Source: Gemmobacter megaterium
Lineage (GTDB): Bacteria; Pseudomonadota; Alphaproteobacteria; Rhodobacterales; Rhodobacteraceae
Length of the DNA stretch: 64,000 bases
Direction: 5' to 3'
Assembly (NCBI RefSeq): GCF_900156815.1
Contig: NZ_FTOT01000007.1
Coordinates: 1-64,000 of the forward strand
Program-made: the position numbers and the translations under genes
Shown: positions 16,984 through 18,581 of the stretch, piece by piece
How positions within the stretch are numbered: the stretch's first letter is position 1
Layout of the letters: each line of letters starts with the position of its first letter
Notes under the pieces: model-generated
What the model saw: the letters and a program-made list of their open reading frames with translations, nothing else
Databases searched by the model: none
Told to the model about the DNA's origin: nothing

Positions 16984-17394
16984 TCAGCGGCTGGGCCGGT
17001 AGGGGCGCGGGTCTTTCCAGCCATGCCGGGGCGGCTGCCCATGCCCGGCGCGCGCGCATCCATAGGGGCCACACGGATGGGGCCGGTACTGCACGACGGG
17101 CGGACGCGGCGGCTGCGGATGGTGCCAGCCATGGCGCGGCGGCGGCGCCGGACGCCAACCGGGATGGGGGCGCGGTGGTTCAGGCCGCATGACCGGCGCG
17201 GGCTGGCGATGGCGGTTGCTGTCGTTGAGCGCCGAGCCGATGATGGCGATGGCCGCGACACCGGCGATCACCTTCATGACATCGTCGGAATTCGCACGGG
17301 CCGGCAATGCCGTTGCAGTCATGGCCCCCATGGCAATCGCAGCCGCGCCAAGGGCGCTGACAATCTTGCGGGTGGCAGGGCGGAACAGGGTCAT
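16984..17394 (-). CDS. Secreted Pro/His/Arg-rich protein of unknown function
   Basis: A 136-residue protein. A long N-terminal signal or anchor (ALGAAAIAMGAMTATALPARA, in two parts, residues about 14-34) is followed by a second hydrophobic stretch (VMKVIAGVAAIAIIGSAL, about 39-56). The C-terminal 75 residues are dominated by Pro, His, Arg, Trp and Gly with PPRHGW repeats. Such tails are seen in bacterial envelope proteins with no defined role; the His content could bind metal. I do not recognise a family. Confidence 0.7.
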   Translation of the reverse strand: MTLFRPATRKIVSALGAAAIAMGAMTATALPARANSDDVMKVIAGVAAIAIIGSALNDSNRHRQPAPVMRPEPPRPHPGWRPAPPPRHGWHHPQPPRPPVVQYRPHPCGPYGCARAGHGQPPRHGWKDPRPYRPSR

Positions 17395-17493
17395 AGGTGT
17401 TTTCCTTTCGTCACGGCCCGCCGGGCGGAGTGCCCTGGCCGGGATAGGTCCACCCTGCGTCCGGTCGCATGGTCAGGCAAAATCACGGCGCGG

Positions 17494-17570
17494 TCATGGG
17501 ATAACACGCACGCGGTTTATTGCTTGTCATGGGATAACAACCATCGTGTCGGGCAAGACATTGCATAACC
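17494..17570. repeat. Phased direct repeats upstream of the secreted-protein / membrane wHTH operon
   Basis: TCATGGGATAACA occurs perfectly at 17494-17506 and again at 17527-17539, 33 bases apart (about three helical turns). A degenerate third copy (ACATTGCATAACC, 9 of 13 matching) lies at 17558-17570, 31 bases further. The array ends 48 bases before the start codon of the 95-aa gene. OmpR-type regulators bind direct repeats, and the operon itself encodes an OmpR-type winged helix, so these are candidate autoregulatory operators. Confidence 0.6.
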
Positions 17571-17617
17571 GCGCACGGCTGCCCATCCTGACAGCATCGA
17601 CCGGAAGGGAGACCCCG

Positions 17618-17905
17618 ATGCACCGAACCTTTGCGCTTGCGGCCGTGTTGGCCGCCGGGTTTGCGCTGCCCGCGCAAGCCGCCTGCTATGCCGATTACAA
17701 GGCCAAGCAGGACAACCCCCTGCGCCTGCATTATGGCGTCATGCAGGTGTCTGACGGTGCCTGTTCGCCCGGCGCCGCCCGCGCGGAAATCGCGCCCCGC
17801 CTGAGCGCGCAGGGCTGGACACTGCTGAACGTGGTCAGCGTCTTCGGACCCGAAGGGCTGAACGAAAGGAAGGGCAATGCCGGCGCCTATTTCCTCCGCT
17901 ATTGA
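17618..17905 (+). CDS. Small secreted protein co-encoded with a membrane wHTH protein
   Basis: A 95-residue protein with a signal peptide ending QAA-CYAD near residue 19-20. The mature part of about 75 residues has two cysteines (near 21 and 50) that may pair. It shows no membrane segment and no recognised domain; the WTLLNVVSVF segment and the C-terminal AYFLRY suggest a small beta-rich fold. A GGAAGGGAGA ribosome site lies upstream. Its 3' end overlaps the next gene by 29 bases, which implies linked expression and perhaps a periplasmic partner role. Confidence 0.75.
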   Translation: MHRTFALAAVLAAGFALPAQAACYADYKAKQDNPLRLHYGVMQVSDGACSPGAARAEIAPRLSAQGWTLLNVVSVFGPEGLNERKGNAGAYFLRY

Positions 17906-18581
17906 CGCGTTGCGGCGGGGCAGACGGACGGTTGCACTGGGTATGGCGACGGTGGTCGTCATTCTGCTGGCGGCGGCGGTGTTCTTGTTCCTGAACCTGC
18001 CCGATGCCAATGCCTTCAATGCACGGATCGAGCGGTTGTTCATGGAGAACGACCAACTGCGCGGCGCGACCGAAATCAAGCTGCTGGAAATCCTTGCGCA
18101 GTCGGGCACCACATTTTCCGAGGTGCTGATCAGCTATCGCATGGTGATCTTTGTCCTGCTGGTGTTTTCCACCGCATTGCTGGGGGCGGCCCTGGTGTTT
18201 CTGGTAACCATCGTCGCGCTGAACCGGCGTATCCGCGAGATGCGGCAGGCGGGCATCCAGGTTGCCTCGCTGAGTATCAGCCGGGCCGAGAATACCGTGA
18301 CGCTGAACAGCATGGAGTTCCCGCTGACCGCCGCCGCCATCGAGACGCTGGCCGTGCTGGCCGAGGCGCGGATGGATGACGAGGTGCTGACCGGCGTGCA
18401 GATCGAGGCCATGATCTCCGGCAAATCCTCGGCTGATTGCGAGGAGGCGGCGGGCGCCACGCGAATCAAACGGTTGCGTGATGCGCTGGGAAACCAGTTG
18501 GTCAGCGAACTGTTGATCAAGACCATCGCGCGCAAGGGCTATGTGCTGGCCATCGACAAGGCGGCGATCCGCATGGATTAG
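17877..18581 (+). CDS. Membrane-anchored protein with C-terminal OmpR-type winged-helix domain
   Basis: A 234-residue protein. Helix 1 (about 19-41) and helix 2 (about 89-115) span the membrane, leaving a 45-residue periplasmic loop and putting both ends in the cytoplasm. Residues 131-227 resemble an OmpR/PhoB DNA-binding domain: a starting beta pair (SLSIS...TVTL), FPLTAAAIETLAVLAE, the helix ATRIKRLRDALG and the wing IKTIARKGYVLAI. There is no receiver domain. The topology is the reverse of ToxR/CadC, where DNA binding is N-terminal. An AAGGAAGG ribosome site lies inside the preceding gene. Direct sensing of the envelope is inferred. Confidence 0.75.
   Translation: MPAPISSAIDALRRGRRTVALGMATVVVILLAAAVFLFLNLPDANAFNARIERLFMENDQLRGATEIKLLEILAQSGTTFSEVLISYRMVIFVLLVFSTALLGAALVFLVTIVALNRRIREMRQAGIQVASLSISRAENTVTLNSMEFPLTAAAIETLAVLAEARMDDEVLTGVQIEAMISGKSSADCEEAAGATRIKRLRDALGNQLVSELLIKTIARKGYVLAIDKAAIRMD

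Follow-up and report, generated by a model that had tools for sequence, protein, structure and literature searches.

A candidate one-component envelope-control circuit in Rhodobacteraceae: a membrane-anchored OmpR-type regulator, a secreted two-cysteine protein and a phased array of palindromes

The locus described here lies in the window, i.e. the whole 64,000-nt stretch of Gemmobacter megaterium DNA that was analysed (positions 1 to 64,000 of contig NZ_FTOT01000007.1), in a genome of 4.17 Mb. The gene of a 95-aa secreted protein (17618-17905) overlaps by 29 nt that of a 234-aa protein with two membrane helices (17877-18581), both open reading frames lying where the first-pass annotation of this DNA had placed them. 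The features of the promoter region and the two genes are as follows.

17472..17484, no strand: degenerate distal operator GTCAGGCAAAATC, read by eye, 21 bp upstream of the next operator
17493..17505, no strand: palindromic operator, 13-mer GTCATGGGATAAC (repeat; 17.5 bits; match in the own-genome scan)
17526..17538, no strand: palindromic operator, 13-mer identical to GTCATGGGATAAC, 33 bp downstream (repeat; 19.8 bits; own-genome match)
17557..17569, no strand: promoter-proximal palindromic operator GACATTGCATAAC (15.0 bits; overlaps the -35 hexamer)
17561-17566: -35 hexamer TTGCAT, inside the proximal operator
17584..17589, + strand: -10 element CATCCT, separated by 17 nt from the -35 hexamer
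17618..17905, + strand: secreted two-cysteine protein, 95 aa (ORF, cysteine conservation, AlphaFold2; no Pfam match)
17877..18581, + strand: membrane-anchored regulator, 234 aa (ORF, hydropathy, Pfam, AlphaFold2, structure matching)

Judged by sequence conservation, the gene pair is real coding sequence, since the regulator is conserved in relatives (67-91% identity to the window protein among the best 80 of the 328 relatives found) and the small gene is present in all 59 fetched loci with full flanks. The closest relatives among the loci fetched are Gemmobacter. Gemmobacter nectariphilus DSM 15620 and Fuscovulum blasticum DSM 2131, among the relatives found, are cultured strains that carry the pair. 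Upstream, the same 59 loci commonly have rnhB (52) and a ccrM-type methyltransferase gene (51); the downstream hisC is common to only one of them. In two annotated records, the Parasedimentitalea plasmids pW43D and pQS-2 (L429, L430), the ccrM-type site-specific DNA methyltransferase gene, rnhB and the pair occur together, with three sites of at least 14 bits before the pair on each plasmid, and both genes of the pair are annotated as hypothetical. In the window, the intergenic region that contains the array is also that of a divergent gene (16984-17394, - strand), whose product is a secreted protein with much Pro, His and Arg; this gene could be a second output of that region and is recognisable upstream in only 9/59 loci.

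Hydropathy places the membrane segments of the regulator at residues ~20-40 (TM1) and ~89-113 (TM2), and the predicted layout has a periplasmic loop of 48 residues (41-88) between them and an OmpR-type winged helix at 128-229. The charge distribution favours a cytoplasmic location of both termini (N-in, C-in) and hence of the DNA-binding domain. In Pfam, this C-terminal domain hits Trans_reg_C (PF00486) with E 4.7e-5; its score of 23.8 bits falls short of the curated cut-off, 26.2. AlphaFold2 with 56 orthologues gave a moderate model (pLDDT 70.5, pTM 0.45; between residues 131 and 230 the block means run from 61 to 83) with the order E132-135 E140-143 E146-149 H152-166 H173-181 H190-204 H207-213 E214-217 E221-224, which is that of the OmpR/PhoB type: N-terminal strands, three helices and a C-terminal hairpin wing. 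ArlR, CadC and ToxR domains hold the top Foldseek ranks (E <0.001 for ArlR only), and VIA aligned the domain to RpaA with Z 11.7 (rmsd 2.6 over 96 residues) and to PhoB and RstA with Z 11.2 each. The fold predicted for residues 125-234 is thus the winged helix that had been proposed from the sequence at first sight. No receiver domain was found in Pfam at E up to 10, the N-terminal half consisting of the two helices and the loop, and NCBIfam response-regulator models match the C-terminal half only, from residue 108 on. With a DNA-binding domain and membrane segments in one chain, the protein is predicted to be a transmembrane one-component regulator. ToxR and CadC have an N-terminal DNA-binding domain and a C-terminal periplasmic sensor; here, in contrast, two N-terminal helices precede a C-terminal DNA-binding domain, so that the inverted topology suggested in the first-pass annotation holds in the predicted structure.

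The secreted protein has two cysteines, Cys 23 and Cys 49, that are invariant in 164/164 non-redundant pairs. Its AlphaFold2 model (pLDDT 83.5, with block means that exceed 90 between residues 21 and 80) has the order beta-beta-alpha-beta-alpha. Beyond the lack of a Pfam match for the window's own protein, 52 relatives gave only stray weak matches, each in at most 2/52 members (best E 0.027), and fold searches returned weak rows only (best VIA Z 5.0). DUF4177, at first suspected to be the family, was dropped; it is absent from the Pfam matches of the 52 members at E up to 10.

The promoter repeats seen in the first-pass annotation are 33 bp apart and identical over 14 bases (17493-17506 and 17526-17539), with a weaker third copy 31 bp further on (17557-17570); shuffling the bases of 17395-17640 20,000 times produced a repeated 14-mer once. 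When the window's promoter is taken together with its orthologues (76 promoters in all), the unit is a 13-bp palindrome with the consensus G[AT]TATnSnATA[AT]C. The motif model was built by expectation-maximisation with symmetry imposed, and individual sites are themselves symmetric, e.g. GATATTGAATATC and GTTATCCGATAAC. Because orthologous sites are symmetric, the direct-repeat reading of the 13-mers was abandoned: the phased array that had been noted is there, and it is made of palindromes, one of them on the -35 box. Repeats recur upstream of the orthologous operons, 75/76 training promoters having two to four copies and the remaining one a single copy. Outside the training set were 71 promoters, six of them copies of training ones; of the 65 independent ones, none lacks a site and 59 have two or more. 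Five of the 80 loci (L017, L019, L060, L064, L067) were left out of the motif set for a short upstream sequence or an unpicked small gene; four carry sites on scanning, and in L019 the upstream sequence is too short. Sites lie only 21-22, 31-33 or 42-44 bp apart in the training promoters and 21-22, 31-33 or 41-43 bp apart in the held-out ones, i.e. two, three or four helical turns, with a phase coherence of 0.93 over 139 gaps. At 14 bits or more, 171 hits fell inside promoters and 2 outside in 639 kb of loci, and 168 hits in promoters compare with 0.25 in shuffles. The degenerate operator at 17472-17484 is below threshold in the window; its 13 letters, found again in a relative (L002), reach 9.9 bits there, and at this position many relatives have scores of about 9-16 bits.

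By sequence, the proximal palindrome covers the -35 box, with a conserved CAnnnT 17 nt downstream of that box. In the 76 promoters, T, T and G of the proximal site are kept at frequencies of 0.99, 0.98 and 0.98, and the -10 positions are C (0.98), A (0.94) and a final T (0.84); [CT]AnnnT stands at the same distance in 52 of the 71 promoters outside motif training. This placement relative to the -10 resembles that of a pho box.

A sample of 198 genomes from the family yielded the regulator in 157 and the secreted protein in 156. The sole difference, G351, has a diverged homologue of the secreted protein in the same place, and counting it the two co-occur in 157/157. The secreted protein was found in none of the 41 genomes without the regulator (0/41), where a profile search for the regulator also came back empty throughout. 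Four of the five matches among 289 genomes of a class sample lie within the family; the other, G190, aligned over residues 23-119 only (E 9e-4) and was taken as a membrane-segment artefact. The genomes listed for a sample of the order were all from the same family and so inform on that family only.

Complete co-occurrence in the sample and the overlap of the genes argue for a functional link of the secreted protein to the regulator. The alternative is a secreted protein that works as the circuit's effector, in the envelope or in adhesion, and is neither sensor nor ligand of the regulator. In its favour, a mirror-tree test of the periplasmic loop against the secreted protein showed no general co-variation (partial r 0.09; TM1 0.40). 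Against it, the two most diverged secreted proteins, in G351 and G439 (L136 1001-1261 and L327), which keep 19% and 26% of consensus positions, occur with an altered loop that the two genomes have in common. This is a suggestive case, from sequence comparison, for a link between loop and partner, but a single event in evolution may account for the shared change, and the loop is as diverged or more (54-65% of consensus) in at least four other cases, whose secreted proteins stand at 52-59%. In one further pair the loop keeps 67% of consensus and the secreted partner 82%. The effector reading also draws on genomes in which the two genes have parted. At least five such genomes are among those listed: the secreted gene has sites in front of it in 5/5 (G435 has just one site), the regulator in 1/5 only (G471, where both genes bear sites, 4 kb apart). 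We regard the effector reading as quite possible, at a little under even odds, and give odds slightly better than even to the secreted protein modulating the regulator.

The separated pairs also bear on the claim that the regulator controls its own operon. Sites do precede the operon, but in four of the five separated cases the regulator's own promoter has none. Since sites follow the secreted gene in 5/5 and the regulator in 1/5, the claim is better put, as far as sequence goes, as control of the secreted protein's gene and of some other envelope genes.

In the 198 genomes, the strict palindrome was counted against a reversed control at 3.41 vs 0.76 with the regulator and at 2.34 vs 1.12 without it. 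The difference between motif and control is 2.65 with and 1.22 without the regulator (Mann-Whitney p 3e-6), the p value being only a guide because the genomes share ancestry. A distinct palindrome, GTTATA[GC]TATAAC, which we take to resemble a zinc-regulator (Zur) box, recurs in G311, G333, G344, G350, G417 and G441, regulator-less genomes included, and inflates the counts of the strict pattern.

Candidate target promoters came from the 30 best protein matches and from hand-picked places, a non-random choice, and were scored at 16 bits or more in 60 of 141 matching genomes for DUF5333 (PF17267), 60 of 198 for an OmpA glycine-zipper lipoprotein and 50 of 191 for lolA. In some genomes the palindrome stands before these further envelope genes, and more often where the regulator is present. 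For DUF5333, whose genes adjoin nuoF or nuoG in the loci read (names that we assigned by recognising the sequences), a site was found in 32/46 promoters with the regulator and in 4/14 without it (Fisher p 0.011), the only gene for which the contrast is significant. The OmpA lipoprotein has a site in 13/49 vs 0/11 (p 0.10; absent in 36/49 with the regulator) and lolA in 9/40 vs 0/10 (p 0.17; absent in 31/40 with the regulator). As lolA, OmpA and curli were first met through the motif, only the comparison of genomes with and without the regulator tests lolA and OmpA. Curlin or CsgH loci in G351, G429 and G441 have two to three sites, 21, 22 or 43 bp apart (L173 1029-1072, L365 1023-1066, L376 967-1010), hinting that curli fibres belong to the circuit in some species. 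In the window's own genome, the array occurs at this promoter only, with 10 further single matches, seven of which lie inside or overlap roughly chosen ORFs. No site was found there before the best OmpA match or the lolA match, no DUF5333 gene was found, and no other clear target emerged.

These counts matter for the question of which protein reads the sites. OmpR-type domains usually read tandem repeats, and palindromic sites are unusual for them. One possibility is that another dimeric regulator, with its gene elsewhere, owns the palindromes and has the gene of the membrane protein as just one of its targets; such a regulator could be co-inherited with the membrane protein, and this was counted against the proposed circuit. 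Such a regulator would fit the symmetric 13-bp site, the regulator promoters without sites in 4/5 separated cases, the motif excess that persists in regulator-less genomes and the DUF5333 site kept in 4/14 of them (three of these genomes are incomplete, at 77-86%; G481 is 98% complete). The motif excess is nevertheless larger in genomes with the regulator, the OmpA and lolA promoters of regulator-less genomes have sites in 0/11 and 0/10, neither contrast being significant alone, and G471 has sites at both separated genes. On this evidence a foreign owner of the sites is unlikely, and the regulator probably binds them itself. Two specific candidates were set aside. LacI-like genes lie near sites in two genomes, but LacI-type operators have a CG centre and the centre of this site is of odd length. 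CenR was dropped for its published motif, TGA-N8-TGA in the accessible part of the source (PMC9275681), which is unlike the palindrome.

Whether the regulator activates or represses can be approached from the geometry of the sites. As a repressor, it would occupy the -35 box and keep RNA polymerase out, and either an envelope signal or the secreted protein would lift the block. This agrees with a proximal operator placed exactly over the -35, with T, T and G kept at 0.98-0.99 as though an unoccupied site had to leave a working promoter, and with upstream phased copies that could form a repressing oligomer. An activator is also expected to need a strict -10 register, and none was found at the DUF5333 and OmpA targets: A...T at the operon's -10 offset occurs in 2/36 DUF5333 promoters, where a conserved CCATCT keeps the T and has the A one base later, and in 1/13 OmpA promoters, with 5/13 two bases later. 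At lolA, however, TTG is present in 0/9 sites and a TAT start stands at the operon's -10 distance in 5/9, as expected where a protein replaces the -35, and we counted this for activation. The -10 of the operon promoter (CAnnnT) is weak, and ToxR, TcpP and CadC act mostly as activators. Repression is thus possible and rather doubtful, and we lean slightly toward net activation.

Transmembrane transcription regulators with an associated protein have been termed "cocomponent systems", and the associated protein aids signalling in several of ToxR-ToxS, TcpP-TcpH and VtrA-VtrC, according to the available part of the source (PMC10269533). The present pair is reminiscent of these systems and of CadC in having a membrane-tethered winged helix, with ToxR and CadC domains among its top Foldseek matches. 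For an action of the presumed partner on the regulator, the analysis gave co-occurrence and gene overlap, and no mirror-tree link. The presumed partner is fully secreted and of no recognised family; unlike in those systems, the operator is a phased palindrome array. With the OmpR/PhoB response regulators it shares the DNA-binding fold (RpaA, PhoB and RstA at VIA Z 11-12), but it has a membrane anchor in place of a receiver, and palindromes two to four turns apart. OmpR-type control of envelope genes is described in the same bacterial family for CenKR of Rhodobacter sphaeroides, which, in the part of the source at hand, is a two-component system reading TGA-N8-TGA (PMC9275681), whereas the site of the pair is the 13-bp palindrome. 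No literature on the gene pair itself was recognised among titles and starts of abstracts, a coverage that most subscription journals fall outside.

In conclusion, we propose, with a probability of about 0.64, that the pair is a one-component envelope-control circuit of Rhodobacteraceae, a membrane-bound regulator with a periplasmic partner. Its basis, from sequence and structure prediction, is a conserved two-gene unit with a tethered winged helix and phased palindromes, the proximal one covering the -35 box. Dimers of the membrane-held regulator would bind the palindromes and line up next to one another along a single face of the double helix. In the periplasm, the 48-residue loop may have the two-cysteine protein as its co-sensor or feedback partner. 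Bound regulator would mainly activate transcription, being placed much as PhoB-type activators are. More tentatively, and with the odds somewhat against it, the circuit may represent an undescribed envelope-homeostasis pathway of the family, in which a membrane regulator of reversed topology, informed by a secreted two-cysteine protein, binds the phased palindromes from the membrane and sets the expression of that partner; in some members of the family its targets would also include lipoprotein transport (lolA), the OmpA lipoprotein, curli and DUF5333, encoded in the nuo operon. Given an operator and recurrent candidate targets, an anonymous protein of 157/198 family genomes becomes a directly testable envelope regulator, in a widespread, mostly aquatic family with cultured members. 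The circuit also offers a test of how a membrane-held OmpR-type domain could read widely spaced palindromes.
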